Shown piece by piece: positions 8,083 through 28,495 of a stretch of 36,509 nucleotides of DNA. The notes under the pieces were generated by a model, which did not search any database, had not been told where the DNA came from, and saw nothing but the letters and a program-made list of their open reading frames with translations. Position numbers and translations under genes: made by a program. Every line of letters begins with the position of its first letter. Within the stretch, counting starts at the first letter, position 1. The stretch is from a virus, in the IMG/VR virus record IMGVR_UViG_3300046777_001790, positions 1 through 36,509 of that record; one strand, 5' to 3'.

Positions 8083-9105
8083 ATGTCAGTTGAAAATATT
8101 GGTGGTCTATACAATACAAAGCAGCCAGGTTATGATGACACGGCTGATATTCAGGCAGCCCTAAAAGCATTTCTGTATGGTAGTTATGATTATGACACTA
8201 CAAGCACAGACCCAACACAGTTACCAAACCCATCTTTGGCGCATCATCTACAGGGTTTAAAAGATAGAATTGCAGCACAAGAAGCATTAGGTATAGGTTC
8301 TGATTATTTAACCCTTTCACAAATTTCAGCAATCACATCCCCAACGGATGGTTATATTGCAATGGCATCAGATTCAACTGGTGCTGCAGTACAGTCTACC
8401 TACGGTATTGCTTTATATCAAAATGAAGAGCCAACAGAAAATCTAATTAATGGAATGCTTTGGGTTGATAAAGATGCAACACCCCAAAGAGCCTATATTT
8501 ATGATGAAGGTACAGAATCCTGGTCTGCAATTACAGAAATACCAGGAATTGTTGATGCTGCTGGAGATTTGATTATTGGTGCGGGACAAGATGATATATC
8601 TGTACTCCCAATAGGTTCAAACGGACAGATACTAACAGTTTCATCTGGTTTACCTTCATGGCAAGATCATGAAACAAAGATATGGGTTAAGAAGTCCTCA
8701 GGATCTTTATCTGGATCTAGTCTTAGTGTTTCTGGATTAGATGGAGAAAGATTATTTATTGTTTTGCATAACTGGAGTCATAACGACGCTACAGATACTG
8801 CAATGCTTTCAGTTACTTTTAACAATAACTCTGGCCCAAATTATATAAACACTGGAGGACTTGTAACAGCAAGCGCATTACATTCACCAACTTTTAATGA
8901 TTCTTCAATTCATGACATAACAATATCAGTTGATCTTGCAAATACATCTTCAATTTTAAAACCAGTATCCACAATTGCAGATAACTCTGCAGGACAATAT
9001 TTTGGATATTTTAGAGATAATGCACCAATATCTTCTGTACAGGTAACCCTTTCACCAACAGGTACATTTGATAGTGGAACATACGAAGTTTGGAGTTATG
9101 AATAA
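8083..9105 (+). CDS. Tail fibre protein, 340 aa
   Basis: The N-terminal 80 residues hold helical, virion-anchor-like sequence (DDTADIQAALKAFLYG, LAHHLQGLKDRIAAQEAL). The middle contains GMLWVDKDATPQRAYIYDEGTESW and AAGDLIIGAGQDDISVLPIGSNGQ, widespread building blocks of phage fibres. The C-terminal about 140 residues form a beta-rich tip, ending TYEVWSYE. The stop overlaps the next ATG (TAATG), which couples it to the small downstream gene. A role in host attachment is inferred from these motifs and the array around it. Confidence 0.75.
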   Translation: MSVENIGGLYNTKQPGYDDTADIQAALKAFLYGSYDYDTTSTDPTQLPNPSLAHHLQGLKDRIAAQEALGIGSDYLTLSQISAITSPTDGYIAMASDSTGAAVQSTYGIALYQNEEPTENLINGMLWVDKDATPQRAYIYDEGTESWSAITEIPGIVDAAGDLIIGAGQDDISVLPIGSNGQILTVSSGLPSWQDHETKIWVKKSSGSLSGSSLSVSGLDGERLFIVLHNWSHNDATDTAMLSVTFNNNSGPNYINTGGLVTASALHSPTFNDSSIHDITISVDLANTSSILKPVSTIADNSAGQYFGYFRDNAPISSVQVTLSPTGTFDSGTYEVWSYE

Positions 9106-9296
9106 TGAGAATAATTGATAATGGAGTAGAGCGTGATATGACAAAAGATGAACTTGAGTCATATCATAAAGTAACTGAAGAGGCATCCATGTTAATTCAA
9201 GCAGAAAAAGATGCTGCTGTAGCAAAAGAAATTGCAGTCGCAAAACTTATTGCATTGGGATTAACAGAATCTGATATAAGGGCGGTGAACTCTTAA
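9105..9296 (+). CDS. Small helical protein following a fibre gene, 63 aa
   Basis: Coupled on both sides by TAATG overlaps (9105 and 9296). It opens with IIDNGVERDMTKDELESYHK, then an Ala/Lys-rich helix (AEKDAAVAKEIAVAKLIALG) and ends LTESDIRAVNS. Small helical proteins of this form, ending with an 'AKLxALGLTExD' segment, are often found next to tail-fibre genes in phages and may assist fibre folding or assembly. That role is inferred from position; the sequence alone does not prove it. Confidence 0.65.
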   Translation: MRIIDNGVERDMTKDELESYHKVTEEASMLIQAEKDAAVAKEIAVAKLIALGLTESDIRAVNS

Positions 9297-9925
9297 TGAC
9301 AGCAGTTAGTTCAAATAGCAAAGTAGCATACATGTATGACCAGGCATCAGATACCTGGTATGCTATTGCTGGTGTTGCAAATACAAATGTTCCATATACA
9401 TGGACACAAACTCATACACATGGGTCTATAGTAACTTTTAATGACGTTATTCGTGCCAAGGCTGGAGTTAATAGATTTCAAAATCCTTCTGCCAGAAATT
9501 CTATAATTCCTTCACCTGTTAAAGGTACTGTTTGTTTTGTTGAACAAACTAACGGTGGAATTGATATAAACCAGGTTCAAATCTATAATGGTTCATCATG
9601 GGTAGGTATGTTAGATACTGCATACTTAGCAACAAAAAGCAGTGACTACACCATAGGTCTTGGGGATGCAGGACAAACTTTATTAATTGATTCTACTAGT
9701 GATAGAACTATAACAGTTCCACTTGATTCTTCTGTACCGTTCGCAATTGGACAAAGGCTTGATGTTGTTAGACTAAATACTGGAAATGTAACTTTTGCTG
9801 GTGTAGTTGGTGTAACAATTAATAGCAAAAATTCAAACAAGAAAATTGCTGCAAGGTATTCTGGCGCAACTCTTATCAAGTATGATACGAATACCTGGGT
9901 CCTTATTGGCGATTTGACGGCGTAG
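9296..9925 (+). CDS. Tail/fibre protein ending in a 'GDLTA' domain, 209 aa
   Basis: The N-terminal part has MYDQASDTWYAIAGVA and VQIYNGSSWVGM, short 'D(G)xxW' fibre motifs. The C-terminal 90 residues, from YTIGLGDAGQTLLI to WVLIGDLTA, are homologous to the end of the 802-aa fibre at 16713-19121 (YTLSALTERDNFIEV to WVVMGDLSA). Both genes are followed directly by a PFFPP-repeat gene, so this domain may be where the PFFPP protein docks. Start and stop are tightly packed with the neighbours. Confidence 0.75.
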   Translation: MTAVSSNSKVAYMYDQASDTWYAIAGVANTNVPYTWTQTHTHGSIVTFNDVIRAKAGVNRFQNPSARNSIIPSPVKGTVCFVEQTNGGIDINQVQIYNGSSWVGMLDTAYLATKSSDYTIGLGDAGQTLLIDSTSDRTITVPLDSSVPFAIGQRLDVVRLNTGNVTFAGVVGVTINSKNSNKKIAARYSGATLIKYDTNTWVLIGDLTA

Positions 9926-9931
9926 GTCCAA

Positions 9932-11446
9932 ATGCTTGGATGGATAGGCAAATGGGCAAGTTCCAAAGGAATGGGAAGAATCCCAAGCCTTGTAGGCCTA
10001 TCCAGAACAAATGCAAGAACAGCAATTACAAATGCTGGGTTTAACTTAGGTACAGAGACACCACTTGGCAATGCTCAAGGTGCTACTGCATTAAATAATG
10101 GAACTGTTAAAGACAGATCAGATGTCAACCAATTATTAAACTATGAAGAGGTTTTAGGCTTTGAATATTATGAGTATGTAGCGCCTCCATTCTTCCCACC
10201 ATCATTTGTTTCTCCATTCTTCCCACCATCATTTGTTATATCTCCATTCTTCCCTCCATTTTTCCCACCATTCTTCCCGTTCTTCCCATTCTTCCCACCA
10301 TTCTTCCCTCCATTCTTCCCTCCATCATTTGTTTCTCCATTCTTCCCACCATTCTTCCCTCCATTCTTCCCTCCATCATTTGTGGCACCAACTTATACAA
10401 ACTATTACGGATATTGTGATCTAAGTAATAACCCAGCAGGACCTTTTGGGCCATACAATATTGATTGTATGACTTTGTTCCAGACACAAGAAAGTGGAAA
10501 TGGATATCCACCAATTGGATGGGTTTGTGGACCAACACCAGAAGAAGGAACTCCTGCGTGTAATGTTTCTCCATTCTTCCCTCCTGCGTTTAACCCATTC
10601 TTCCCACCATTCTTCCCACCTTCATTTGTGACACCTACAACAACATATTATTTCTGCTGTAATGATGGAGGAGGCGGTTCTGTTGAGGCAACCAGTTCTG
10701 GAACAGCAGTTGCTTTAGCATCCTCATATTGTTCTGGACAAGGATCAACAGGACCAGCAGGTGGAGTTTACTTAACACCTCAAAGTTGTAATGTAAGCCC
10801 ATTCTTCCCTCCTTCATTTGTTGCTCCATTCTTTCCACCTTCATTTGTTGCTCCATTCTTCCCTCCTGCGTTTAACCCATTCTTCCCACCATTCTTCCCA
10901 CCATTCTTCCCTCCTACATTTAATGCACCCGCAAGTCTTTACAGAGCATCATTCTGCGGTGATGGTGTAGCACAGACGTGGGTAAGCAGTGTTTCTTGTT
11001 CAGATGCATTTAATGAAGCATTAGGAAACTTCACTACAATTACAAACTGGAATTGTGTTTTAGGAACATCATATCCAGCAGCACCTACCTGTTCTGCACC
11101 ACCATTCTTCCCACCATTCTTCCCACCTGCATTTACAGCATCACCGTTCTTCCCACCTTCATTCGTTGCTCCATTCTTCCCACCTTCATTCGTTGCTCCA
11201 TTCTTCCCTCCTTCATTCGTTGCTCCATTCTTCCCTCCTTCATTTGTTGCTCCATTCTTCCCACCTACTTTTACGGCATCACCGTTCTTCCCACCTACTT
11301 TTACAGCATCACCGTTCTTCCCACCTACCTTTGTTGCTCCATTCTTCCCACCTACATTTAATAGTGGTGGATGTGGTGATCCATGCTATGCACCATTCTG
11401 GGAGTGCCCAGTAGCGGCTCCATGCTGTGGAAACTGTTATTACTAA
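9932..11446 (+). CDS. PASTA-domain protein with PFFPP repeats and Cys-rich caps, 504 aa
   Basis: Residues about 15-82 read as a PASTA domain (IPSLVGLSRTNARTAITNAGFNLG), a fold that binds peptidoglycan fragments in Gram-positive kinases and penicillin-binding proteins. After residue 84 come about 29 FFPP units, as tandem tetrapeptides or spaced by SFVA, AFN or TFTAS. Three inserts with four Cys each interrupt them (about 154-212, 236-288 and 334-388). The last 26 residues form a six-Cys tail with the pattern CYxPxWxCPxxAPCCxxCYY, shared with the protein at 19147. I know no family for the PFFPP part. It is probably an external, disulfide-stabilised fibre or cell-wall-binding protein. Only a weak AGGT precedes ATG 9932. 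Confidence 0.85.
   Translation: MLGWIGKWASSKGMGRIPSLVGLSRTNARTAITNAGFNLGTETPLGNAQGATALNNGTVKDRSDVNQLLNYEEVLGFEYYEYVAPPFFPPSFVSPFFPPSFVISPFFPPFFPPFFPFFPFFPPFFPPFFPPSFVSPFFPPFFPPFFPPSFVAPTYTNYYGYCDLSNNPAGPFGPYNIDCMTLFQTQESGNGYPPIGWVCGPTPEEGTPACNVSPFFPPAFNPFFPPFFPPSFVTPTTTYYFCCNDGGGGSVEATSSGTAVALASSYCSGQGSTGPAGGVYLTPQSCNVSPFFPPSFVAPFFPPSFVAPFFPPAFNPFFPPFFPPFFPPTFNAPASLYRASFCGDGVAQTWVSSVSCSDAFNEALGNFTTITNWNCVLGTSYPAAPTCSAPPFFPPFFPPAFTASPFFPPSFVAPFFPPSFVAPFFPPSFVAPFFPPSFVAPFFPPTFTASPFFPPTFTASPFFPPTFVAPFFPPTFNSGGCGDPCYAPFWECPVAAPCCGNCYY
10180..11365 (+). repeat. DNA repeats encoding PFFPP units
   Basis: Many near-identical copies of CCATTCTTCCCACC and CCATTCTTCCCTCC, interrupted by three unique segments. 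The same unit recurs at about 19766-19886 in the second PFFPP gene. Synonymous variation (CCA/CCT/CCG, TTC/TTT) is limited, so homologous recombination between copies or between the two genes is possible. Confidence 0.85.
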
Positions 11447-11451
11447 TTACT

Positions 11452-11480
11452 TTGTAAAGTATTGCTTAATGAGGTATAAT
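11452..11480 (+). promoter_or_regulatory. -35/-10 promoter for the second zinc-ribbon gene
   Basis: TTGTAA (11452-11457), a 17-nt spacer, and TATAAT (11475-11480). The leader to ATG 11524 is about 37 nt and contains AAAGGAATAA as ribosome-binding sequence. Confidence 0.65.
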
Positions 11481-11523
11481 TATTAAAGAAATTAATGGTA
11501 AATAAAGGCTAAAGGAATAATAC

Positions 11524-11763
11524 ATGGAAGAACAAAAAAGTGCATGGCAAAAATATAAAGAAAGTCTTGGAGAGACAAGACCTTGGGATTTAGTAAACCC
11601 GAATATTCCACGGGCTAGTGAAGATGAGGCAGAAAAAAGATTTGAAATATGTAAGGCATGCCCAGAATTAATTAAACTAACCAGTCAATGTAAGAAATGC
11701 GGTTGTTTTATGGCTGCAAAAACAAAATTACTTGCAGCAACCTGCCCTATTGGAAAATGGTAA
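11524..11763 (+). CDS. Zinc-ribbon protein (CKKCGCFM...CPIGKW family), 79 aa
   Basis: Paralogue of the minus-strand protein at 2327-2530. It keeps CKACPE, then CKKCGCFMAAKTKLLAATCPIGKW-type ending, with five Cys positioned to bind zinc. The N-terminal 40 residues are different (WQKYKESLGETRPWDLVNPN). It stands as a single-gene unit with its own -35/-10 promoter and a terminator right after the stop, so it is expressed independently of the fibre genes on either side. Function unknown. Confidence 0.8.
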   Translation: MEEQKSAWQKYKESLGETRPWDLVNPNIPRASEDEAEKRFEICKACPELIKLTSQCKKCGCFMAAKTKLLAATCPIGKW

Positions 11764-11766
11764 AAA

Positions 11767-11806
11767 AATAGGGGACCAATTAAGGCCCCCTATTCTTATG
11801 TTTTTT
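11767..11806 (+). terminator. Intrinsic terminator
   Basis: The arms AATAGGGG (11767-11774) and CCCCTATT (11787-11794) enclose a 12-nt loop; CTTATG and a six-T run follow. It sits between the zinc-ribbon gene and the convergent lytic enzyme gene. Confidence 0.8.
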
Positions 11807-12365
11807 ATTTAGGAAAATCAAGCATTAGATGCTTTGTTCTTGGAGTAATGCCTTTCCAGGCAATCCAATTTTCACCGCCATTTGACATGTGAAATGCAAC
11901 TTGAGCATTTAATACTGGATTAAATAACTCATAGTTTGACTCTAAATTAAACTTATCTCTACGGTCAGGACCAAGGTCGCCAATCATATTTATTTGAAAT
12001 AAGCCATAAGAACTATCTCCAGTTCTTTTGCTAAGGTTTAGTGCCATAGGTCTACCGCCAGATTCTTTTTTAGCAATAGCCCAAGCCTCCCTTAGTTTTT
12101 GACCTTCAAAACCTACCAAGTGTAGTAGATTTTTAAGATCTTTGTCAGATAGATTTACAGCGTTTTTGTATTTTTCTAACTGATCTTCTTTAGCCTCAGA
12201 AACACTTTTGGCCACTTTCGTGGCCTCTATTGTCTCTTGTAGCACGATATTACTATCGTCTAATCGGTTTTCAGAAGCATTCGCAAAGTTTGTAGAAACA
12301 ACAAACATTGCCAATATGCTGAGTGTACCAATGATGTTCTTATTATTATTCATAAAAGTAATCAT
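11805..12365 (-). CDS. Secreted lytic transglycosylase/lysozyme-like enzyme, 186 aa
   Basis: The start at 12365 follows AAGGAGGAAACT, a near-perfect ribosome-binding site; the frame stays open further upstream, but that part overlaps the leader hairpin. Residues 1-30 form a signal peptide (hydrophobic IIGTLSILAMFVVS, likely cut after ANA). The catalytic domain follows a helical linker: AWAIAKKESGG gives the acid Glu at 101, and SSYGLFQIN (118-126) is the typical lytic transglycosylase substrate-site motif. It should cleave the glycan backbone of peptidoglycan after export. It is the only gene on the minus strand among the virion genes, with its own promoter. It may serve lysis or, less likely, entry. 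Confidence 0.85.
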   Translation of the reverse strand: MITFMNNNKNIIGTLSILAMFVVSTNFANASENRLDDSNIVLQETIEATKVAKSVSEAKEDQLEKYKNAVNLSDKDLKNLLHLVGFEGQKLREAWAIAKKESGGRPMALNLSKRTGDSSYGLFQINMIGDLGPDRRDKFNLESNYELFNPVLNAQVAFHMSNGGENWIAWKGITPRTKHLMLDFPK

Positions 12366-12383
12366 AGTTTCCTCCTTAGAAAC

Positions 12384-12416
12384 GTAATGACACCTTGTTA
12401 AGGGGTGCCATGTTAC
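12384..12416 (-). promoter_or_regulatory. 5' leader hairpin of the lytic enzyme mRNA
   Basis: On the minus strand GTAACATGGCACC pairs, with one bulge and one mismatch, with GGTGTCATTAC around a 9-nt loop. It starts at about the first transcribed base given by the promoter at 12422-12451 and ends shortly before the ribosome-binding site. It could stabilise the mRNA or be a protein-binding operator. Confidence 0.5.
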
Positions 12417-12421
12417 TTCCA

Positions 12422-12451
12422 AGTATAACACAATTTAGACCATGTAGTCAA
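12422..12451 (-). promoter_or_regulatory. -35/-10 promoter of the lytic enzyme
   Basis: Minus strand: TTGACT (12451-12446), an 18-nt spacer, then TATACT (12427-12422) preceded by TGT, so both -35 and extended -10 elements are present. It lies back to back with the forward promoter at 12459-12464. Confidence 0.7.
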
Positions 12452-12458
12452 ATAATGC

Positions 12459-12464
12459 TATAAT
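12459..12464 (+). promoter_or_regulatory. Extended -10 promoter, leaderless transcript
   Basis: ATGCTATAAT, extended -10, ending 8 nt before ATG 12473. It diverges from the promoter of the lytic enzyme. Confidence 0.6.
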
Positions 12465-12472
12465 TGATCTCT

Positions 12473-12988: not shown

Positions 12989-12993
12989 TATGA

Positions 12994-12999
12994 TATAAT
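12994..12999 (+). promoter_or_regulatory. Extended -10 promoter, leaderless transcript
   Basis: TGATATAAT, extended -10, ending exactly 6 nt before ATG 13006. Confidence 0.65.
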
Positions 13000-13005
13000 C
13001 GACAC

Positions 13006-16712: not shown

Positions 16713-19121
16713 ATGGCAACAAGAATGCAACAGCGCAGAGGAACTGCAGCACAATGGACATCTGCTAACCCTATACTAGCAGCAGGTGAAATTGGTTTTG
16801 AAACAGACACAGGTAAGTTTAAGGTCGGTAACGGATCTTCTACATGGTCAAGTTTAAAGTACTTTACAGATGCTGAGTCAGTCCTAGGTGGACTCTCTGG
16901 AGTTGATCTACCTGCCACACTAGATACTCTCAACGAACTAGCAGCAGCATTGGGAGATAATCCAAACTTCCTTTCAGACATTGCATCAAACCTTGATGAT
17001 CACGCTTCAGAAACAGAAAATATTCATGGTATTGCAAACACAGCAGATCTAGCAACACAAGATTATGTGATTAGTGCAATAACAAACTCAGCAGTAGATC
17101 AGTCAGAACTTGCTGGTACTGGAATTGACTGGAACTCTGGAACATCACAATTTGATATCGATAACACAGTAGTAACACTTGATGGTTCACAGACACTAAC
17201 AAACAAGTCACTTACATCTCCTACTCTTACAGGAACCCCAGTAGCACCTACTGCTGATGTAGCAACAAATACAACTCAAGTTGCAACAACTGCCTATGTA
17301 CAAAATGCTATAGCAAATGTTATTGATAATGCTCCTGGTGCAATTGATACTCTTAATGAACTAGCAGCAGCACTTGGCGAAGATCCAAATTTTGCTACAA
17401 CAGTAACTAATGAACTTGCTACAAAAGCAACTATTACACAACTAACAGATCACTCTGCAGACACAACATCTGTACACGGTATTGCTAATACAGCAGATCT
17501 TGCCGTACATTCTGATATTACAACTGCTATATCAGATCACGCTGGAGACACAACATCTGTACATGGTATCGCTAATACAGCAGACCTAGTTTATGCTTCA
17601 GATCTTTCAAACCATGCTTCAGATACAACATCTATTCATGGTATTGCAAATACAGCAGATCTTGCTGTACACTCAGATATTTCAACTGCTATAACAAATC
17701 ACAATTCTGATGAAACAAATGTTCACGGTATTGCAGACACAGCGCAATTGGCTACAAAGAATTATGCTGATACTGCTGTGAGCACACACTCATCAGATAC
17801 AACAAATGTTCACGGTATTCTTGATACAGCAGACCTTGCTTTAACATCAGATGTTACTGACGCTATAAGCACTCATAATAGCGAGACACTAAACGTACAT
17901 GGTATTGGTAATACTGCAAATCTTGCTACAAAAACTTATGCTGACGATGCAGTAAGTACACACTCTAGCGATACAACATCTGTACACGGAATTGCAGATA
18001 CTGCAAATCTTGTATTAACAGATGATGCACGTCTATCTGACACAAGAACACCAACAGATAACACAGTATCAACAGAAAAGATTATTAACTCTGCTGTAAC
18101 TGCAGATAAGATTGCTGGAGATGCTGTAACAACAGCAAAGATCCTAGACGGTGCTGTAACATCTGGAAAGATTGCAGACGGCACAATTGTAAATGCTGAT
18201 ATTAACGCTTCAGCAGCAATTGCACAATCTAAGATCTCAGGACTAACATCAGATCTTGCTGCAAAGGCTCCTCTTGCAGACCCAACATTTACAGGTACTG
18301 TTTCAGGTATCACAAAGTCAATGGTTGGTCTTGGCAATGTAGATAATACATCTGATGCTAATAAGCCAGTCTCAACTGCTACACAAACAGCACTTGATCT
18401 AAAGGCTCCAAAGGCAGCACCTACATTCACAGGAACATTAACAGCAGCAGATGTAACAGTTACTGGAAACCTAACAGTTTCTGGAACAACTACAACAGTT
18501 TCTGCAGCAAACCTTGTTGTTTCAGATCCACTTATTTATCTTGGTGATGGAAACACAGGAAATACAGTAGACCTTGGTTTTGTTGGTTCATATAATGATG
18601 GAACTTATGCTCACCAGGGTCTTGTTAAGGACTCCTCTGATGGAAAGTGGAAGTTGTTCAAGGGTGTAACAGATGAACCTACTACAACAGTTAACTTTGC
18701 ACAGGGTTCACTTGATGCACTTAAGGTTGGTGCTTTTGAAGCAACAACAGTAACACCATCTTCTGGTGTCGTATTCTCAGACGGTACACAGACAAAGGAA
18801 GGCGTACCTTCACGTACAACAATTGTACAGAAGACAGATTCCTACACTCTTTCAGCACTTACAGAAAGAGATAACTTTATCGAAGTAAATAAGGCAACAG
18901 CAACAACAATTACAATCCCAACAAATGCAACAGTAGCATATCCAGTAGGAACATCTATTGATATTCTTCAGGTTGGTGCTGGACAGGTAACAATTGCTGG
19001 TGCAGCAGGCGTAACAGTAAACGCTACACCTGGTTTGAAATTGAGAACTCAGTGGTCATCTGCAACTCTCTTCAAGAGAGCAACAGATACTTGGGTTGTC
19101 ATGGGCGATCTTTCAGCATAA
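16713..19121 (+). CDS. Large tail fibre with His-Gly-Ile repeats, 802 aa
   Basis: The N-terminus MATRMQQRRGTAAQWTSANPILAAGEIGFETDTGKFKVGNGS is a well-known phage tail-fibre opening. A shaft follows, with eight copies of a roughly 20-40 residue repeat around HxSDTTSVHGIANTADLA. Next come DGAVTSGKIADGTI and FTGTVSGITKSMVGLGNVDNTSD segments typical of fibres ending in knobs. The last 90 residues (YTLSALTERDNF to WVVMGDLSA) match the end of the protein at 9296-9925. The conserved His in each repeat could line a metal-binding axis in a trimer, as in some phage fibres; that is inference. A PFFPP gene follows, as after its paralogue. Confidence 0.8.
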   Translation: MATRMQQRRGTAAQWTSANPILAAGEIGFETDTGKFKVGNGSSTWSSLKYFTDAESVLGGLSGVDLPATLDTLNELAAALGDNPNFLSDIASNLDDHASETENIHGIANTADLATQDYVISAITNSAVDQSELAGTGIDWNSGTSQFDIDNTVVTLDGSQTLTNKSLTSPTLTGTPVAPTADVATNTTQVATTAYVQNAIANVIDNAPGAIDTLNELAAALGEDPNFATTVTNELATKATITQLTDHSADTTSVHGIANTADLAVHSDITTAISDHAGDTTSVHGIANTADLVYASDLSNHASDTTSIHGIANTADLAVHSDISTAITNHNSDETNVHGIADTAQLATKNYADTAVSTHSSDTTNVHGILDTADLALTSDVTDAISTHNSETLNVHGIGNTANLATKTYADDAVSTHSSDTTSVHGIADTANLVLTDDARLSDTRTPTDNTVSTEKIINSAVTADKIAGDAVTTAKILDGAVTSGKIADGTIVNADINASAAIAQSKISGLTSDLAAKAPLADPTFTGTVSGITKSMVGLGNVDNTSDANKPVSTATQTALDLKAPKAAPTFTGTLTAADVTVTGNLTVSGTTTTVSAANLVVSDPLIYLGDGNTGNTVDLGFVGSYNDGTYAHQGLVKDSSDGKWKLFKGVTDEPTTTVNFAQGSLDALKVGAFEATTVTPSSGVVFSDGTQTKEGVPSRTTIVQKTDSYTLSALTERDNFIEVNKATATTITIPTNATVAYPVGTSIDILQVGAGQVTIAGAAGVTVNATPGLKLRTQWSSATLFKRATDTWVVMGDLSA
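16996..18015 (+). repeat. Eight tandem coding repeats with core VHGIANTA
   Basis: The encoded motif H-x2-D/E-T-x2-V/I-H-G-I-x-N/D-T-A-x-L occurs eight times with variable linkers. The DNA copies are diverged, so these are old protein repeats and not recent duplications. Confidence 0.75.
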
Positions 19122-19146: not shown

Positions 19147-19977
19147 ATGGCAGCAGGTAAGAAAAAGGGAATTAAGTCCTCAGCACAGGATAACTTCTTA
19201 CAACCAGACGCAGTAACAGGTTTATCTGGTACAGACGTTGGAACAGGAAGAGGTTTTGATAACGGTGCAGTTAACTTATCCTGGACCTTACCTGCTAACT
19301 CTCCAGCAGCGACATCTTATACGATTACAACAACACCAGCAACAACAACATTAGTTACTGGTAATGCAAATACAACTGCCACATTTACTGGTCTATCAGG
19401 TGGAACATCATATACATTTACTGTTGTTGGTACAAATGCTGCTGGTACAGCAAATCCTACGACAAGTGCTTCGGTTGCTGTTACAACTGTTCCAGGAACA
19501 CCAACAAGCGTAAATGCTAATGCACAATCAGCAAACGTAAATAGAATTTCTTGGACTGCCCCAGCAACTGGCGGAAAAGCCATATCTTCATATACAATTA
19601 CTGGTTCTGACGGAACAAGTTACACTGGTATTACTTCTTCTCCATATGATGCTACAGATAATACTCCATCTTCTACATCTCCAGGATCACAGACTTATAC
19701 TATTGTTGCTATAAATGCTAACGGAACAGGTGCAGGAGCAACAACAGGATCTGTTAATACAACTCCTCCGTTCTTCCCATTCTTCCCGCCGTTTTTCCCT
19801 CCATTCTTCCCATTCTTCCCTCCATTCTTCCCACCATTCTTCCCGTTCTTCCCGTTCTTCCCTCCATTCTTCCCACCTTCATTCGTAGGCGGTGGTGGTA
19901 GCGCTTGTACTGGATGCTATAGACCATATTGGAATTGCCCAGCATCAGCACCATGCTGTAGCATGTGTTACTACTAA
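19147..19977 (+). CDS. Fibronectin III protein with PFFPP repeat and six-Cys tail, 276 aa
   Basis: Preceded by AGGAGAATAAG. Residues about 21-114 and 117-206 are two fibronectin type III domains (NLSWTLPA...TSYTFTVVGTNAAG and RISWTAPATGGKAISSYTITG). Residues about 207-247 are PFFPP repeats with six FFPP and several FFPF units. A short Gly linker leads to a six-Cys tail with the same pattern, CYxPxWxCPxxAPCCxxCYY, as the PASTA-PFFPP protein at 9932. The two proteins thus share their C-terminal half but carry different N-terminal binding domains. It probably decorates the virion or contacts the host envelope. Confidence 0.85.
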   Translation: MAAGKKKGIKSSAQDNFLQPDAVTGLSGTDVGTGRGFDNGAVNLSWTLPANSPAATSYTITTTPATTTLVTGNANTTATFTGLSGGTSYTFTVVGTNAAGTANPTTSASVAVTTVPGTPTSVNANAQSANVNRISWTAPATGGKAISSYTITGSDGTSYTGITSSPYDATDNTPSSTSPGSQTYTIVAINANGTGAGATTGSVNTTPPFFPFFPPFFPPFFPFFPPFFPPFFPFFPFFPPFFPPSFVGGGGSACTGCYRPYWNCPASAPCCSMCYY

Positions 19978-20542: not shown

Positions 20543-21265
20543 ATGGAAATATATGACGAAAACTCTAACCCATGGTTTACTAAAGATAGATCAGAAACAG
20601 CATCTAATAGAGTTCAACCAAAAATAATTGGAAACAACATTTCAGTAGAAAATCCAGGGCTTGGGTTAAATATTTATAGAAATGTTTTTTCATTAGATGA
20701 TGCCAATAGATATATAAATATTCTTGAATCTAATCTATCAACTGGTACCAAATATAAGTGGTCTGAGGCACAAGTAACAAACTCTACAGTGCCAATTAAA
20801 AAGGCTAGAGATGCTGTAGACTTTAAGTATAAGCAAGAAAACTTAGGACCAAGAGATGAGCATAATTCTGAACTTATTGATTTGCATCAAGAGATATATG
20901 AAAAGTTAAAATTTTGCATAGACGACTATGCACACTATTGGGGTATTAATGTAATTTATTATGAAGCCTTTAATTTTGTAAAGTATGAAGGTGAAGGCAA
21001 GCACTTTAATATCCATGCAGATCACGGCCCAGCATATAATGCTACAGTTTCTGCAGTTATTTATATTAATGATGATTATGATGGTGGCGAAATTAAGTTC
21101 CCAAGATTAGATGGATACGTTCATAAACCAAGAGTTGGAGACATTGCAGTTTTTCCATCTAACTATATTTATGAACATGCTTCTTTGCCTATGAAAAGCG
21201 GTACAAAGTATTGCGTAGTTATTATGACTGACATTAATGAGTTAGGCCATAAGAATGGATACTGA
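20543..21265 (+). CDS. 2-oxoglutarate/Fe(II) dioxygenase, P4H-like, 240 aa
   Basis: The double-stranded beta-helix core is clear: HFNIHADHG gives iron ligands H158 and D160, VIYINDDYDGGEIKFP is the family's central strand-turn, and YEHASLPMKSGTKY gives H212 and the 2-oxoglutarate-binding K222. The N-terminal 140 residues are the variable, substrate-shaping part. Enzymes of this prolyl-4-hydroxylase-like group hydroxylate proteins, peptides or small molecules using O2 and 2-oxoglutarate. It is the first gene of the operon, directly after the fibre array, and overlaps the next gene by 11 nt. Substrate unknown. Confidence 0.88.
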   Translation: MEIYDENSNPWFTKDRSETASNRVQPKIIGNNISVENPGLGLNIYRNVFSLDDANRYINILESNLSTGTKYKWSEAQVTNSTVPIKKARDAVDFKYKQENLGPRDEHNSELIDLHQEIYEKLKFCIDDYAHYWGINVIYYEAFNFVKYEGEGKHFNIHADHGPAYNATVSAVIYINDDYDGGEIKFPRLDGYVHKPRVGDIAVFPSNYIYEHASLPMKSGTKYCVVIMTDINELGHKNGY

Positions 21266-22034
21266 GTATAACTCTTTAACGTTTAAATCATATAGACCTT
21301 GGTTAAGCAAAGAAAGTAATTCTGTACCAGCACCAACACAAAATGCAATACCACAATGGTATAAGGATGCAGATAGGTTTGCTAAAAATCCGTTTAATGG
21401 AGAATACTATAAAGCACCTAAAGAGGTTTGTCCATTTCCTAAAGAAGGAACGACAGATGATTACGGAAAGATTCCAACATGGAAGGCTTGTCCAGCAATC
21501 ATGGATGCATTTATGACTGGGTATGTCTTTAAAACTCCTTGCGATATAACATTTTTTAAAAATGATAGGGGAAGTATAGATGTTAAAGTTAGTGATCCTA
21601 AGTGTCAAGACTTTGTTTCTTCTAGACCACCAATGCCACAATTTGAACACCCAAAAGGATTTTACAAAGATCATTTTGCTTGGATGCCAGACTGGGGATT
21701 AGAACTGCCAGATGGATATAGTGCTCTATTTATGACACCAATGAATCGATTTGACTTGCCTTTCATTAATACAACTGGCGTTGTAGATTCTGACAAGGTA
21801 CATATATTAGGAAGTTTTCCATTTTTTATTGCAGAAGGATGGGAAGGAACAATCCCAGCAGGAACACCATATTTACAGGTTTTTCCTTTTAAAAGAGAAA
21901 ATTGGGAACACAATATTGAGATTTTAGATCAATCTCAGATATATGCTAAAATAGTAGATAACGCAAACTTTTATCGTCAACCAGACGGCGGTATATACAA
22001 AAGTAAAGTATGGACAAGAAGAGAGTATAAATAG
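21255..22034 (+). CDS. DUF6065-like or related phage protein, 259 aa
   Basis: Key segments are AIPQWYKDADRF near the N-terminus, CPAIMDAFMTGYVFKTPCDI, then GYSALFMTPMNRFDLPF, and AEGWEGTIPAGTPYLQVFPFKREW-like text. Proteins with this order (IPxWxK...NRxDLPF...GTPxxQxxPFKRxxW) are common near 2-oxoglutarate dioxygenases in marine and freshwater phages (recollection). The pattern also resembles the protein at 22726 in its AGTP segment, so the two may share a beta-barrel fold. There is no iron-binding HxD motif, so it is not one of the dioxygenases. Function unknown; it overlaps the first dioxygenase gene. Confidence 0.6.
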   Translation: MDTEYNSLTFKSYRPWLSKESNSVPAPTQNAIPQWYKDADRFAKNPFNGEYYKAPKEVCPFPKEGTTDDYGKIPTWKACPAIMDAFMTGYVFKTPCDITFFKNDRGSIDVKVSDPKCQDFVSSRPPMPQFEHPKGFYKDHFAWMPDWGLELPDGYSALFMTPMNRFDLPFINTTGVVDSDKVHILGSFPFFIAEGWEGTIPAGTPYLQVFPFKRENWEHNIEILDQSQIYAKIVDNANFYRQPDGGIYKSKVWTRREYK

Positions 22035-22042
22035 GAGATCTT

Positions 22043-22726
22043 ATGACAACTTGGACAAGTAAAGAAGTTCTTGGTAACGGTATTGTTGTTTACAGAAATG
22101 TTATTAAAAAAGAAATAGATGTAATCAATAGACTAGAAAATGTTTTAGGAGAAGTTGCTCCATACGGAGAACTATCCCCAGATGGCAAAAGATACCACTG
22201 GATGCCAGCATATGTGGGTTATCAGCAACTTATGCCTGATTACAGAGACTGTGCAGATTTTAAGTTTAAGAAAACTGATATTGAAGGTGACACTAGCGAA
22301 GAGTCTCTTAAGTTGCAGTCTTTGTGGCAAGATGTTTATAACGCACAGGCTCCAGCAGTAGAGGATTATAGAAGAGACTACAACATAATGGACCTAAAGT
22401 ACTGGGAAGCATTTAACTTTATTAAGTATGGCCCAGGTCAACACTTTATGGAGCATCATGATCATGGTTACTCTTACAACTGCACAGTTTCATTGGTTGC
22501 ATACCCTAATGATGATTACGAAGGTGGAGAACTTTATTTTAGACTTCAAGATTTAAATATAAAGCCACAGGCTGGAGATCTTTATATTTTCCCATCTAAC
22601 TTTATGTATCCACATCGTGCTATGCCAGTACACTCTGGTAGAAAGTACTCTATTGTTACTATGTTGGATTATAGCAAAAAATATCACACGCCAGATATGT
22701 ATGATCCTAAGTGGGATAATGAATAA
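22043..22726 (+). CDS. 2-oxoglutarate/Fe(II) dioxygenase, 227 aa
   Basis: AGGAGAT precedes ATG 22043. Iron ligands are H138 and D140 in FMEHHDHG, and H191 in YPHRAMPVHSGRKY, with R200 in position to bind 2-oxoglutarate. VAYPNDDYEGGELYFR is the family strand, and KPQAGDLYIFPSNF the one before the distal His. It is the closest in form to the first dioxygenase (both have WEAFNFIKY/YEAFNFVKY before the HxD and HGxxYNxTVS after it), so these two may be duplicates with related substrates. The stop overlaps the next ATG (TAATG). Confidence 0.88.
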   Translation: MTTWTSKEVLGNGIVVYRNVIKKEIDVINRLENVLGEVAPYGELSPDGKRYHWMPAYVGYQQLMPDYRDCADFKFKKTDIEGDTSEESLKLQSLWQDVYNAQAPAVEDYRRDYNIMDLKYWEAFNFIKYGPGQHFMEHHDHGYSYNCTVSLVAYPNDDYEGGELYFRLQDLNIKPQAGDLYIFPSNFMYPHRAMPVHSGRKYSIVTMLDYSKKYHTPDMYDPKWDNE

Positions 22727-23433
22727 TGTTTAATATATCTGTTGAAAAAATGCACGGTGCTTTATTTAATATTGAACCAATGTCAATTAAAAGAGACTGG
22801 ATGGATGCTACATCCGAAAACCATGCATATAGATGTTTTCCAGTAACTCAAGCAAATGTAATTGGATGGAGTCTTTCTTGTACAGAAGATATCATATTTA
22901 CTTGGGATGGAATAAATGATCAAACAGATAAACATGTAGAAATAGAAAATCCTATAGGGTCTTATGCTGGAAGAGGGCAATCATCAATAAGTTTGAATAC
23001 TGGTTTAGTATTTAGAACAGATAAAGATGTTAGTATTTTAACAATTAATCCAGTAAATTATTTTAGTGATGACTTTGAAACAATGTCTAACTTAATAACT
23101 ACATCTTTTTATGATAATCCACTACCATTAGCAATTAAGGCTAAGAAGGCAAATGAAAAAACAATTATTAAGGCTGGTACACCAATAGCAACAATAATTC
23201 CAATATCACTAACAAATCTAAATAATACATCTATTGATATTATAGATTATGAAGATCTTAATAATGAAAGATCTAATGCTAATAGGTCATATGGGGAAGC
23301 AGCGCAAGTAGTTAACTCATCTGGAGAATGGACCGATTGGTATAGAGATGCTGTAAATGAAAAGAGTGAGTCTTTGGGATCTCACGAGGTAAAGACTCTA
23401 AGACTATCTGTTAATGATAAGACAAGAAAGTGA
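22726..23433 (+). CDS. DUF6065-like protein, 235 aa
   Basis: AYRCFPVTQANVIGWSLSC near residues 34-52, TWDGIN, then GLVFRTDKDVSILTINPVNYF, and IKAGTPIATIIPISL follow the order I associate with the DUF6065 family (RCLPLxxANxxGW...GP.N...GEPI), which is found in bacteria and phages without known activity. No catalytic motif can be named. It lies between two dioxygenase genes, sharing TAATG with the one upstream, so it probably works with them, for instance in presenting or modifying the same substrate. Confidence 0.6.
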   Translation: MFNISVEKMHGALFNIEPMSIKRDWMDATSENHAYRCFPVTQANVIGWSLSCTEDIIFTWDGINDQTDKHVEIENPIGSYAGRGQSSISLNTGLVFRTDKDVSILTINPVNYFSDDFETMSNLITTSFYDNPLPLAIKAKKANEKTIIKAGTPIATIIPISLTNLNNTSIDIIDYEDLNNERSNANRSYGEAAQVVNSSGEWTDWYRDAVNEKSESLGSHEVKTLRLSVNDKTRK

Positions 23434-23439
23434 TATAAT
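23434..23439 (+). promoter_or_regulatory. Internal extended -10 promoter
   Basis: TGATATAAT lies directly after the preceding stop, and the box ends 3 nt before ATG 23443 and 6 nt before ATG 23446. It would give a leaderless transcript for the third dioxygenase and genes beyond. Confidence 0.55.
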
Positions 23440-23442
23440 AAT

Positions 23443-24198
23443 ATGATGATGTCAAATGATGCAATTGAGGTAGTTAGAAAGCCATCAATGACCCCCTCTG
23501 GGTTTTTTGGTCATGGTCCAGAAAATATTATAGAGTTAGAAAATTTTATGACAGCAGAAGAAGTAGATTTTCTAGACAATGCAGCAAGAAATATTAAAAT
23601 TTGGGACGTAACAGAAAGTCATAAAAATGAAAATGGAACTGTTATATATGATGCAAGTTATTGGAAAGATAGAGTTGCTAGTGCCCCATCATTAAATCAA
23701 AATGACCCAAATATTGTTCCAGTAATTGTAGGACTGTTTAATAGATTGCAGCCAATCATTGAAGACTTTTTTAAAGTTAAGGTACAACCAACTGGTCAGA
23801 CAATTGTTAAATGGAATCCTGGTCAATTTCAAAAGCCACATGCAGATAAGGAACTACATAGTGGCCCAGATGCAGGAATGCCAAACGATTTTCCTTATTA
23901 TGACATAGCAAGTTTGTTTTATATTAATGATGACTATGAAGGCGGAGAGTTATACTTTCCTAACCAAGGAATTCAGTTTAAGCCAAAAAGAGGTTCTGCA
24001 TATTTCTTCCCAGGCGACATGAACTATGTTCACGGTGTTACAGAAATTAAAGATTCTTATAGATATACATGCCCATTCTTTTGGGAAATACTAGAACACA
24101 CTGGAGATGTTAAGCCAGATCTAAATAAAGAATATTATAGAATTTTCCCTACAGAAGAAGAAATTTCTAAATGGGACCCAAAAAGAGGTATTAAATAA
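23443..24198 (+). CDS. 2-oxoglutarate/Fe(II) dioxygenase, 251 aa
   Basis: Three ATG codons stand in a row at the start; the second (23446) is at ideal leaderless distance from the -10 box. Iron ligands are H133 and D135 in KPHADKE, and H197 in YVHGVTEIKDSYRYT, with R207 as the 2-oxoglutarate anchor. LFYINDDYEGGELYFPNQG is a textbook P4H-like strand pair. The N-terminal half shows the ELENFMTAEEVDFLDN helix common to prolyl-hydroxylase-like proteins. The C-terminus has an extra 40-residue tail. Substrate unknown. Confidence 0.88.
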   Translation: MMMSNDAIEVVRKPSMTPSGFFGHGPENIIELENFMTAEEVDFLDNAARNIKIWDVTESHKNENGTVIYDASYWKDRVASAPSLNQNDPNIVPVIVGLFNRLQPIIEDFFKVKVQPTGQTIVKWNPGQFQKPHADKELHSGPDAGMPNDFPYYDIASLFYINDDYEGGELYFPNQGIQFKPKRGSAYFFPGDMNYVHGVTEIKDSYRYTCPFFWEILEHTGDVKPDLNKEYYRIFPTEEEISKWDPKRGIK

Positions 24199-24200
24199 TT

Positions 24201-25109
24201 ATGATTGATAGTTCAGTTGAAGTAATCGAGATATATCCAAGAATCCTTGTGTATAGAAATATGTTTAAAGATCCTAAAAAAATCTATGAAACATTAAAAG
24301 AGTCTACAGAAGGTAATGAGGACAGACTCTTAAGTCAATGGACTCAATGGTCTATCTTTGGAGATTACCTAAACCCAACTGCACCATCAATTACACCAAG
24401 ATTAAGTCTTGAAGAGGTTGATGCTTTAAATGCGGACACTGAAATTAAACAAAATCAAAAAGACTTTTTAAGAGAATTATTTGAAGGTTTTTATAAAGTA
24501 AGCGAATACTATACACAAAAATTTTCAGACGAACTTAATTTTGATCTAAATGAGGTTTCTGAGGTCAAAGATGAGCAAGGAAATAATATACCAAGATGGC
24601 AACCTTACGGACCATCAATAGCAAAATATCACAAAGACACTGAGATGTTTTCTAATGGCCATGGAAATAACAGCGGTATGGCAATGACATATCATTCTGA
24701 TTATATAAGAGAGCCTATTATTAGTCCAGGTTATAAGTTTGCTATAACAGTTCTTGCATACTTTAATGATGACTATCTTGGAGGAGAGATTGACTTTGCT
24801 ATAGGAAAAGAACTTTACTCTTACAAGCCACAAGCAGGAGACTGGTTAGTTTTCCCATCTGGACACCCAGATGTTTTAAATAAAGATGGACAGGTTTACC
24901 TCCATGGAGTCTTAGAGCCATCAGAAGAACATAAGTATTTTGCAAGAATGTATTGGAGACGATACAGCGAAGGCGATCAAGAATGGTTTGATAAAGAAGC
25001 AGAATTTGGAAGAGATGTTTGGCTATCTATGCAAGATGCAATTATGGAACAGTATAGAATGGATCATCCTCAAAGATATCAGATACCAGAAGGAGTTAGA
25101 GTAAAATGA
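24201..25109 (+). CDS. 2-oxoglutarate/Fe(II) dioxygenase, 302 aa
   Basis: The largest of the eight. Iron ligands are H165 and D167 in TYHSDYIRE, and H235 in YLHGVLEPSEEHKYF, with K245 as the probable 2-oxoglutarate ligand. LAYFNDDYLGGEIDFA is the family strand, followed by KPQAGDWLVFPSGHPD. An N-terminal extension of about 60 residues and a C-terminal helix of about 40 residues distinguish it from the others, so its substrate may be bigger or different. The stop overlaps the next start as ATGA (25106-25109). Confidence 0.87.
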   Translation: MIDSSVEVIEIYPRILVYRNMFKDPKKIYETLKESTEGNEDRLLSQWTQWSIFGDYLNPTAPSITPRLSLEEVDALNADTEIKQNQKDFLRELFEGFYKVSEYYTQKFSDELNFDLNEVSEVKDEQGNNIPRWQPYGPSIAKYHKDTEMFSNGHGNNSGMAMTYHSDYIREPIISPGYKFAITVLAYFNDDYLGGEIDFAIGKELYSYKPQAGDWLVFPSGHPDVLNKDGQVYLHGVLEPSEEHKYFARMYWRRYSEGDQEWFDKEAEFGRDVWLSMQDAIMEQYRMDHPQRYQIPEGVRVK

Positions 25110-25861
25110 ACCTAGAAAATAAAAATAGATTGACAAAAGATATAGTTATCTATGAAAACTTTATTAATCCAGAAACTGCTGCAAAACTTGTTAAGGTTTT
25201 AGATAAGCATGCAGAGGCTGGAACCATAACCTGGATGCCGATATCCTTTTATGAATCCTACTCGTCTGTTTTACCACAAGATGATGATGAGATTGTTTTA
25301 CAAGAAGGACTACCTGGCAGCATATTCACAGATATGAAAAGTGGAATTATAGATGCTGTTGCTTCAGTTCATGATATCGATAGAGCAATAGTTTCGCAAA
25401 TTGGATACCACACACAAAAGTGGGAGCCAGGTGCCTACGCAAGAGTTCACTCAGATAATACAGATGAACATGGAAACTCTGGTGCATTTACAAGAAGTAG
25501 ATATGCAGCATTTTTGTATTTAAATGATGACTTTGAGGGAGGACTGTTACAGTTCCCATCACAAAACATAAGTATTAAACCAAAAGTTGGAACCCTTGCA
25601 GCCTTTGATGGCGGTTTTAATAATATGCATGAGGTAACTCTTATAACAAGCGGAGTAAGATACACACTAGGTTCCTTTTGGGATGATAGAGAAGAGTCTG
25701 CATACCCACAAGAATTAAGAGATGCTTGGGCAGAAGAGATGAAAGAAACAAGAGCAAAGCAAGAAATTGAAAGAGCGGAATGGCAAGAATTGCTTAAGCA
25801 AGGTTGGAAATTAGATAAGGATGGAAATAAGTATAAAATCGATGAGGTCGATAATGCTTAA
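25106..25861 (+). CDS. 2-oxoglutarate/Fe(II) dioxygenase with charged C-terminal helix, 251 aa
   Basis: Starts in an ATGA overlap. Iron ligands are H115 and D117 in ARVHSDNTDEHG, and H175 in NMHEVTLITSGVRYT, with R185 as 2-oxoglutarate anchor. LYLNDDFEGGLLQFPSQN is the family strand. After the catalytic domain comes a highly charged helix (about residues 195-235, rich in E, K and R), absent from the neighbours and possibly a protein-binding arm or coiled coil. The next gene starts inside its final codons. Confidence 0.87.
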   Translation: MNLENKNRLTKDIVIYENFINPETAAKLVKVLDKHAEAGTITWMPISFYESYSSVLPQDDDEIVLQEGLPGSIFTDMKSGIIDAVASVHDIDRAIVSQIGYHTQKWEPGAYARVHSDNTDEHGNSGAFTRSRYAAFLYLNDDFEGGLLQFPSQNISIKPKVGTLAAFDGGFNNMHEVTLITSGVRYTLGSFWDDREESAYPQELRDAWAEEMKETRAKQEIERAEWQELLKQGWKLDKDGNKYKIDEVDNA

Positions 25862-26513
25862 AGGTTTTAAAGAAAAACTTATAGAAAACAATCTTGAATT
25901 TACAGAAGTAACAGAAGATATCCTATGGGTTAAAAATTTTTTAACACAAGAAGAAATTAATTTTATTTTGGATGTTATTAGTAAGGCATCTCAGGCAGAC
26001 TGGGAAGTAGAATACATGGGTAATCTAAAAAACTTTTGTTTAGAAAAGTTCGGCAGAGAGGATGTAGATAACCTTGTGGCCGAAGGAAAGTTTGAAATTA
26101 CACAAAATTGGGTAGATAAGAATTTAAATATTAAACATCATCCAGAACAAAACATATTCTATGAAAGACTGTCCAGTATTATAGATAAGTGTGACTCAAG
26201 TCTAATGCTTAGCGGACTTGCAACAATTCAAAGAATGCAACCAAAGGTAGAGTTAAAGTCACATACTGATCAGCATACTGATCCATCAATTCAATATGCA
26301 ACTATTATCTATATCAATGATGATTATGTAGATGGAGAATTATTTTTCCACAATCTAGATATATCTTTACGTCCAAAACCAGGAGATCTACTATTTTTTC
26401 CAGGGGATGAAAAGCACGAACATGGAGTAAGACATGTAGGAGAAGGCCCAATAAGATATGTTATAGTTGGTTTTGTAAAAGAAAGAGATCATTATGAAAG
26501 AAATAGGTACTAG
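25854..26513 (+). CDS. 2-oxoglutarate/Fe(II) dioxygenase, 219 aa
   Basis: I choose ATG 25854, which has GAGG upstream and overlaps the previous gene by 8 nt, over in-frame starts further upstream. Iron ligands are H137 and D139 in SHTDQHTD, and H190 in HEHGVRHVGEGPIRY, with R201 binding 2-oxoglutarate. IIYINDDYVDGELFFHN is the family strand; one Gly of the usual GG is Asp. An ENNLEFTEVTEDILWVKNFLTQEE start is typical for the fold. It ends 8 nt before the next gene, whose ribosome-binding site is AGGAGG. Confidence 0.87.
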   Translation: MLKGFKEKLIENNLEFTEVTEDILWVKNFLTQEEINFILDVISKASQADWEVEYMGNLKNFCLEKFGREDVDNLVAEGKFEITQNWVDKNLNIKHHPEQNIFYERLSSIIDKCDSSLMLSGLATIQRMQPKVELKSHTDQHTDPSIQYATIIYINDDYVDGELFFHNLDISLRPKPGDLLFFPGDEKHEHGVRHVGEGPIRYVIVGFVKERDHYERNRY

Positions 26514-26521
26514 GAGGAATA

Positions 26522-27253
26522 ATGAATAGAGAAATACTTGATCCAAAAGTTTATTATTACACAGATGCAATTGATAATTTTGACATCTTTCAGCAAACTT
26601 TAAATGAATTAGATCAACTAGAGTCACCTAATGAATTAAATGTAAACATCTGGAATAAGTGGACATCATCTAACGATAAGGACTTTATCTATGGAGAAAC
26701 AAAAACATTTGATCCTGGTGCTATAGAAAGATTAGGTGGAGAGGTAGGAGAAAAAAGTAAATATATTTATGATGCAGTTATAGATACATTTACAAAAGTT
26801 TGCAAAGACTATGCCTCATCATTAGGAGATTTTGATGAGCCAAGACTTTTTCCAACATTTAATATTAAAAAGTATTACACTGGTATGGCAATGGGTGCAC
26901 ATTTTGATCAGTTAGATGGAGATCAAACACTAAGATACTCGCTGGTGATGTATTTAAATGATGACTGTGAAGGCGGAGAGATATCGTTCCAGTTAAAGGA
27001 TTATGATGGTGGATGGAACAGCAAAGATGGTTGGGTACATGGTGCTCCACCAGTTAATCTAGATTATGCAGTTGCAGTTGAGAATAATGCAATTGATTTT
27101 GGAGTAAAGCCAAAAGCAAATAGTGTTATTATATTTCCAGCAAATGCACCATACTTTCATACAGCACACACAGTTAAGTCTGGGGTAAAGTATATGGTTC
27201 CTGGACATTGGATTCATAACAATATGGATCTGAATCGTGCTGAAAGCATGTAA
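26522..27253 (+). CDS. 2-oxoglutarate/Fe(II) dioxygenase, 243 aa
   Basis: Strong ribosome-binding site (AGGAGGAATA). Iron ligands are H127 and D129 in GAHFDQLDGD, and H213 in YFHTAHTVKSGVKY, with K223 as 2-oxoglutarate anchor. LVMYLNDDCEGGEISFQ is the family strand. A 25-residue insertion (about 160-190, GGWNSKDGWVHGAPP) separates it from the KPKANSVIIFPAN strand; such loops often cover the active site. Next to the dehydrogenase gene, which begins with no gap after its stop. Confidence 0.87.
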   Translation: MNREILDPKVYYYTDAIDNFDIFQQTLNELDQLESPNELNVNIWNKWTSSNDKDFIYGETKTFDPGAIERLGGEVGEKSKYIYDAVIDTFTKVCKDYASSLGDFDEPRLFPTFNIKKYYTGMAMGAHFDQLDGDQTLRYSLVMYLNDDCEGGEISFQLKDYDGGWNSKDGWVHGAPPVNLDYAVAVENNAIDFGVKPKANSVIIFPANAPYFHTAHTVKSGVKYMVPGHWIHNNMDLNRAESM

Positions 27254-27922
27254 ATGAAAACAGCAATAGTCACAGGGGCAAGCAAGGGTGTAGGTTATGC
27301 CACTGTTAAACTATTATCTGAAAACGGATATAAAGTTATAGCAGTATCAAGAGATCTTAGTAAGGTTTCTAATTTAATTTCTGAAAATGTAGAAGTTTAT
27401 CAATTAGATATAACTAAAGAAAATGAAATAGAATCATTTTTTCATAAATATAAAGATATAACTCTAGATCTTCTTGTTAACAATGCTGGAGGTGGATCAG
27501 GTCCAACATTTATTATTAATGAAACCATGGATAATTTTAGAAGAGCATACGACATAAATGTTTCTGGCCCAATGTACCTATCACAATTATTTGTGCCATG
27601 TATGAAAAAGTCAGAATCTGCTACAATTATATTCATAACATCTTTATGTGGTAAGATACCGTTTAGAGGTGGCGGTAATTATAGTAATGCAAAAAGAGGC
27701 GAAATGGCTTTAGTAGATACAATGAGAATGGAATTTCCAGAGTATGGGATTAAAGTAACAGAAATTTGTCCAGGTACTATAGATACTCAAATTGAAAAAA
27801 AGGATAATGCATTGACAGCAGAAGATATGGCAGAGTCAATTCGTTGGGTAGCCTCATTACCAAAACATTTTAACGTTAATCATTTAGAGGTTAGCCATAT
27901 TTCAAATAGTAAGTATATGTAG
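27254..27922 (+). CDS. Short-chain dehydrogenase/reductase, 222 aa
   Basis: A classical SDR: nucleotide-binding TGASKGVG at residues 7-14, NNAG at 76-79, the catalytic Ser in ITSLCG (S130) and YSNAK (Y143, K147), then CPGTIDT. An Arg at 33 (VSRD) suggests preference for NADP(H). Length is on the short side but all catalytic parts are there. It sits between two dioxygenase genes and begins directly after a stop codon, so it should act in the same pathway, perhaps oxidising a hydroxyl group introduced by a dioxygenase or reducing a carbonyl. Substrate unknown. Confidence 0.88.
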   Translation: MKTAIVTGASKGVGYATVKLLSENGYKVIAVSRDLSKVSNLISENVEVYQLDITKENEIESFFHKYKDITLDLLVNNAGGGSGPTFIINETMDNFRRAYDINVSGPMYLSQLFVPCMKKSESATIIFITSLCGKIPFRGGGNYSNAKRGEMALVDTMRMEFPEYGIKVTEICPGTIDTQIEKKDNALTAEDMAESIRWVASLPKHFNVNHLEVSHISNSKYM

Positions 27923-27928
27923 GTGAAT

Positions 27929-28495
27929 ATGAATATCAATAAATTATATGATGACTTGTATGAAGTTGAAAATTTTTTAACTGACGAAGAACTTAATGAA
28001 GTTTTTAGAATAATCAACAACACACCAGAAGAAGCATGGTTTGACGAAGAGATGAGAGAAAAGCATAACGTCTCCGACTTCTGGTTTGGTAAAAACCTAT
28101 ACTTTAATGAACCAACAATATTTGATACTGTCAATGATAAACTCAGAGATTTATTTGAATCCTATTCATTTTATCCAGACAAGATGCACCTACAAAGATA
28201 TAAAAAGGGTGACTTTATAAAGCATCATGCTGATCAGTGGATTCCAGACTTACCATACTATATTGGTTATGGATTCTGTTTATATTTTAATAATGACTAT
28301 GCTGGAGGAGAGTTAGACTATCCAGATATTGATATTAGGGTTAAGCCAAAGGCTAACTCTTTATATATACATGGGGGACACATAGTGCACGGTTCGCTTC
28401 CAGTATTAGATGACAAAATAAGATATTTTTCAACTGTTTTTATACACGGAACAGAAGAAAAGCCAACTAGATTAAGGAAAGATTTATTCAAATGA
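27929..28495 (+). CDS. 2-oxoglutarate/Fe(II) dioxygenase, 188 aa
   Basis: ATG 27929 is preferred because AGGTGA lies 5 nt upstream; GTG 27923 is an in-frame alternative. The smallest of the eight, nearly only the catalytic core: H100 and D102 in KHHADQW, H154 in IVHGSLPVLDDKIRY, and R165. LYFNNDYAGGELDYP is the family strand. Its stop overlaps the methyltransferase start (ATGA, 28492-28495). Confidence 0.86.
   Translation: MNINKLYDDLYEVENFLTDEELNEVFRIINNTPEEAWFDEEMREKHNVSDFWFGKNLYFNEPTIFDTVNDKLRDLFESYSFYPDKMHLQRYKKGDFIKHHADQWIPDLPYYIGYGFCLYFNNDYAGGELDYPDIDIRVKPKANSLYIHGGHIVHGSLPVLDDKIRYFSTVFIHGTEEKPTRLRKDLFK

Follow-up and report, generated by a model that had tools for sequence, protein, structure and literature searches.

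To our knowledge, the receptor-binding proteins of phages that infect freshwater actinobacteria are largely unknown. In E7 and F5, two Nanopelagicales phages that have been isolated, a variable island extends over tail fibre and collagen-like genes and is thought to be involved in host recognition (PMC10202952). Actinomycetia phage DSL-LC01, whose source is Dishui Lake (PMC10611076), has collagen-like genes together with WhiB, a marker of actinophages (PMC6802176). Here, we analysed a virus sequence of 36,509 nucleotides (IMG/VR record IMGVR_UViG_3300046777_001790, hereafter the window), whose RNR has DSL-LC01 as its closest annotated relative (64% identity). No FFPP or PT tracts were found in DSL-LC01 within positions 1-20000 and 85000-129469. 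An earlier note, drawn from the letters of the window alone, had described the product of 9932-11446 (gene A) as an unfamiliar aromatic/proline fibre with a PASTA anchor.

Gene A lies on the plus strand (9932..11446), starts with ATG and encodes 504 amino acids, including 18 Cys. Its translation contains exactly 29 FFPP and 31 FFP strings, in agreement with the roughly 29 units counted before, and the spacers SFVA(P), AFN and TFTAS separate the units as had been stated. Pro and Phe account for 20.2 and 17.9% of the residues, and when these were shuffled 10,000 times, FFPP occurred 0.67 times on average and five times at most. Across the 29 units, FFPP codons are invariant at positions 1 and 2, whereas the third positions vary, indicating that the protein sequence is under selection and that the frame is real. 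Moreover, the N-terminus, the modules and the synteny are kept in at least eight relatives (orthologues taken: L112, L175, L176, L177, L180, L181, L186 and L187). The codon-position pattern and this conservation confirm the coding frame assumed previously, and they rule out a frame artefact or an antisense reading (minus-strand ORFs at 10236-10574, and TTG ORFs in other plus frames).

The protein begins with a conserved leader (MLGWIGKWxxSKGMG), followed on the same strand by a PASTA-fold domain (aa 15-80, 9974..10171), a first FFPP tract (aa 86-151, 10187..10384), a YYGYC-type module with four Cys (aa 152-212, 10385..10567), a second tract (10571..10633), a YFCC-type module, also with four Cys (aa 235-288, 10634..10795), a third tract (10796..10927), a third four-Cys module (aa 333-389, 10928..11098), a fourth tract composed chiefly of 9-residue FFPPSFVAP units (11099..11365) and a Cys-rich tail with six Cys (11366..11443), which resembles the tail of a second FFPP gene of the same virus (gene B). 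In the module clustering, the YYGYC-type module belongs to a cluster of eight, common to L112, L175 and L180, and the YFCC-type module to a cluster of 11, common to L112, L175, L176, L186 and L408; no cluster partner was found for the third module at E 1e-3. The Cys modules are predicted to form disulphides. AlphaFold modelled no secondary structure in the FFPP tracts (pLDDT about 50-60), and the model of the whole protein is poor (pLDDT 51); for low-complexity tracts, a monomer model is a poor guide to assemblies. The description as an aromatic/proline fibre is right in that an unusual Phe/Pro-rich protein is encoded among fibre genes, but the repeats form four tracts between Cys-rich modules and not a continuous fibre. 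The three four-Cys modules, the six-Cys tail, the second FFPP gene and the interchangeability of the repeats did not figure in the earlier note.

The PASTA profile PF03793 matches the window copy weakly (E = 0.0077, 16.6 bits, against a curated cut-off of 23.2), and its cut-off is passed by four relatives (L112, L013, L039 and L181). The modelled domain has a pLDDT of 77-90 over most of its length, and each of its best eight PDB matches in Foldseek is a PASTA domain from PknB or PrkC (probability 0.97-1.00, target TM up to 0.78), with M. tuberculosis PknB among the fold matches. The N-terminal PASTA domain recognized earlier therefore has a PASTA fold by model. Its use as a general anchor is not supported, since an N-terminal PASTA domain alternates with Fn3 across the wider family. 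In tail proteins, the N-terminus is often the end nearer to the virion, and with this alternation, peptidoglycan binding is not the default reading for the PASTA domain of gene A.

Comparison of the gene A locus between viruses revealed that the linkers are replaceable. FFPP linkers are found in the window and in L112; they are largely replaced by (PT)n, with some FFPP left, in L176, L177, L180 and L186, and (PVTP)n stands in their place in L175. In forms fused to the tip protein (see later), T-rich tracts are present in L408 and APVAP tracts in L405 and L409. Modules of the YFCC and YYGYC families have FFPP, PT, PVTP or T-tracts at their flanks, the YFCC-type cluster occurring next to four different linker types. 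Since the N-terminus and the modules persist whichever tract, FFPP, PT, PVTP, T-rich or APVAP, occupies this locus, FFPP would act as a spacer, a role that is well supported by these comparisons. Thrombospondin-type-1-like Cys/Trp repeats (WSxWSxCSxGxxxRxR) were also observed in the gene A relatives L412 and L181, with a Pfam TSP_1 match at only E=0.067, in L412.

Gene A itself has no PHROG match. Directly upstream lies a gene for a tail-fibre/tip protein (9296..9925, plus strand; phrog_8780 minor tail protein, E=3.4e-15, and others), whose C-terminal domain is common to phage tail proteins and recurs in the 802-aa tail fibre protein encoded immediately before gene B (16713..19121, plus strand; phrog_2631 and phrog_8780). 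Both FFPP genes are thus placed directly behind tail fibre/tip genes, and this arrangement is conserved across relatives. Two collagen-repeat tail fibre genes are present on the plus strand at 4234-6324 and 6345-7064 (Pfam Collagen, E=2.9e-43 and 2.7e-6; PHROG tail fibre). Downstream of gene A, a small DUF6171 protein with Cys pairs (11524-11763) is conserved beside it in many relatives. Elsewhere in the window, a glutathione-peroxidase-like N-terminal match is found at 1056-1847 (PF00255, E=3.4e-7). The tip domain of 9296-9925 also matches inside long frames of G001, G003, G054, G055 and G056, where one frame joins it to module strings and Pro-rich linkers; in L106, a single long frame comprises tip domain, FFPP, Cys modules and Hint. 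Adjacency and fusions together suggest that the gene A product is located at the tip of the tail fibre. Synteny is kept in the relatives, most neighbours being 70-95% identical. Compared with its nearest relative, L112, the window is 95% identical in 13661-14107 and 85% in the gene immediately before gene A, but gene A itself falls to 42% over 280 aa. Judged from these alignments, the variable member of the cassette is gene A, and by analogy the variable island of E7 and F5 would fit a host-recognition theme for this cassette.

Gene B (19147..19977, plus strand) encodes 276 amino acids, with a basic N-terminus, two Fn3-like domains, an FFPP tract and a six-Cys tail. The Fn3-like part was modelled as two beta-sandwiches with a pLDDT above 90 and the FFPP tract as unstructured (about 54-60); a PHROG tail-protein match is weak (E=4e-4). 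At the gene B position of other viruses, FFPP is replaced by aromatic low-complexity tracts, (GAF)n in L404 (1114-2724) and L406 (725-2503) and GFSHY repeats in L410 (3337-4395). These substitutes being aromatic as well, the aromatic residues may matter beyond spacing. Among 10 viruses that have both A and B, the C-terminal tails of the two proteins are more alike within than between viruses (p = 1.4e-4 by permutation, and 3.5e-5 for the tail only), with the signal carried by about half of the 10 pairs and related viruses not being independent. Such matching fits either of two causes, a partner that A and B have in common or recombination by way of the repeats, and the two tails of the window differ at many bases, which indicates that there was no recent conversion.

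A search for the repeat unit across viruses, proposed in the earlier note, was performed as a scan of viral contigs and prokaryote genomes with a degenerate DNA pattern for PFFPPFFPP. At least 120 stretches were obtained from viral contigs, and 51 from 257 Gb of prokaryote genomes. Of these 51, 45 do not reach four units in any frame; only L138, L147, L163 and L166 resemble family members, and these come from MAG contigs that are possibly viral. At the level of sequence, the repeat thus appears to be widespread and almost exclusively viral. Members of the family share a common form, in which one or more N-terminal PASTA or Fn3-like domains precede [F/Y/H/W]FPP units spaced by 4 or 3 residues and a variable end, which may be a short -FK, a Cys-rich tail, an intein/Hint-like domain or an S74 chaperone domain. 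Intein/Hint-like ends were seen in L070, L079, L106, L085 and L423, some with a first Cys and a terminal His-Asn; the C-terminal region is similar in L404, L406 and L410 but lacks the final His-Asn, and L404 has no Hint profile match. In the protein of L055, AFK runs on into an S74 chaperone domain (E=7.6e-12), and many others, among them the short proteins of L061, L068 and L086, stop exactly at -FK, where the S74 self-cleaving domain would start. No family covering the repeat was found in Pfam or PHROG (also queried with pure tracts) or by sequence search of the PDB, and a literature search for the repeat strings found no paper, in line with the earlier note, which could place the protein in no named family. 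INPHARED gave no match, or none significant, with the whole gene A protein, the PASTA end, an Fn3 end or the repeat DNA; this is weak evidence of absence because BLAST masks such repeats. Finally, WhiB is present in 15 of the 26 long records that bear FFPP or are relatives of gene A. The window virus is a lake-type virus whose hosts are probably actinobacteria.

Just downstream of gene B, eight paralogous 2OG-Fe(II) oxygenase genes, with other genes interspersed, occupy 20543..28495 on the plus strand (starts 20543, 22043, 23443, 24201, 25106, 25821, 26522 and 27923). Six of them are matched by PHROGs/Pfam, and the HxD...H iron triad is invariant in all eight. Among solved structures, prolyl 4-hydroxylases and prolyl 3-hydroxylase 1 are their nearest relatives, the best PDB match being the prolyl 4-hydroxylase 3itq (E=2e-11). 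The oxygenase family is found in all 26 long records, which had been picked for FFPP or as gene A relatives, with 4-13 copies in most and one copy in two, and in one of 27 random viral contigs. G002, which holds L175, is among the 26 as a gene A relative; it has PVTP and GFSHY and, in the parts read, no FFPP. Contigs of the WhiB lineage were considered as an FFPP-negative control for this link, but the enzymes occur there too, in eight of nine records, just one of which has a detected FFPP tract, so that the link is not specific. Because the oxygenases are common in records of this lineage without detected FFPP, the association may reflect lineage and not function. Accordingly tentative, and in our estimation rather unlikely, is the proposal that the virus hydroxylates its own FFPP, PT-type and/or collagen-like tail tracts by means of these putative prolyl hydroxylases, giving hydroxyproline-bearing fibres.

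The explanation that we favour, and hold to be reasonably probable, is that gene A encodes a beads-on-a-string, rapidly shuffled and tail-fibre-tip-associated host-recognition protein of a freshwater actinophage, in which FFPP is a stiff aromatic/proline spacer. The N-terminal domain would dock the protein to the tip, the FFPP tracts, extended and non-beta, would keep the modules apart and away from the tip, and the disulphide-bonded Cys modules would contact the host surface. The aromatic residues of FFPP might add surface or self-adhesion, and the repeat DNA might also aid recombination of modules and tails. Alternatively, the tract could be an active adhesive, its aromatic/proline hydrophobic surface sticking to the host envelope or bundling proteins A and B. 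This would agree with the likewise aromatic GAF and GFSHY substitutes of gene B, with the retention of F, Y, H or W at the aromatic position of the unit and with tails that match, in about half of the 10 pairs, as if A and B had the same partner. However, the PT, PVTP and T tracts that substitute for FFPP in gene A are non-aromatic, and we see an adhesive as possible, though of lesser probability. That the repeats are chiefly DNA-level platforms for the shuffling of modules and tails, with the protein sequence secondary, would agree with the shuffled modules and with the tails matched within viruses; this is very improbable given the selection on the protein that the codon positions of the 29 units reveal and the lack of recent conversion between the two window tails.

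In line with the earlier note, the gene A protein could be a PASTA-anchored, putative peptidoglycan-binding factor, which would fix the particle to the cell wall as the virus enters; its PASTA fold is close to that of actinobacterial PknB, and a lysozyme-like SLT gene is located nearby (11805-12431, downstream of gene A on the opposite strand). The PASTA domain is N-terminal, however, and PASTA and Fn3 stand in for each other across the wider family, even at the gene B position (L410); moreover, many PASTA domains do not bind muropeptides, and such a factor seems quite unlikely to us. A decoration of the capsid by FFPP proteins would be consistent with the cement/head-decoration matches of the neighbours 12464-12988 and 14123-16168 in Pfam/PHROG profile searches, and capsids commonly carry Fn3/Ig-like domains. 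Yet the adjacent and fused partners of the FFPP genes are tail fibre/tip genes, and a place on the capsid is decidedly improbable.

The FFPP repeat is a genuine feature that is spread widely among virus contigs and seems not to have been described: an aromatic/proline tetrapeptide repeat common in freshwater virus contigs is absent from the family libraries, solved structures and papers searched. The repeat is new, and its probable job, spacing and displaying modules in tail-tip recognition proteins of phages, is one already known. As a spacer, FFPP would constitute a new low-complexity protein material, and if it were also hydroxylated by phage enzymes, the virus would chemically mature its own receptor-binding fibres. 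Gene A also marks the host-recognition cassettes of phages whose likely hosts are freshwater actinobacteria that are abundant and hard to culture.

Several known systems share features with this locus. The N-terminal domain of gene A has the fold of the PASTA domains of PknB/PrkC kinases, but it is a single copy with a weak profile score, and neither a kinase nor a membrane anchor accompanies it. Like collagen-like phage tail fibres, of which the window itself has two genes, FFPP proteins bring Pro-rich repeats to phage fibres; the claim of the earlier note that gene A is not collagen stands, as it has no Pfam Collagen match and its FFPP units follow each other at 4 or 3 residues without Gly and without Gly-X-Y periodicity. 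By gene position only, A and B are analogous to the T-even gp38-type distal adhesins, being small, variable, directly downstream of a fibre gene and likely to act in recognition at the tip, whereas they differ from these in carrying PASTA/Fn3 domains, FFPP and Cys modules, and Gly-rich motifs like those of gp38 were not noticed in them. Finally, the cellulase-type PT linkers of modular secreted enzymes are likewise low-complexity, Pro-rich spacers between small folded modules, and FFPP and PT interchange between the same modules here. In contrast to these soluble, O-glycosylated linkers, FFPP is strongly hydrophobic and aromatic, and it is seen here in virus-like sequences only.
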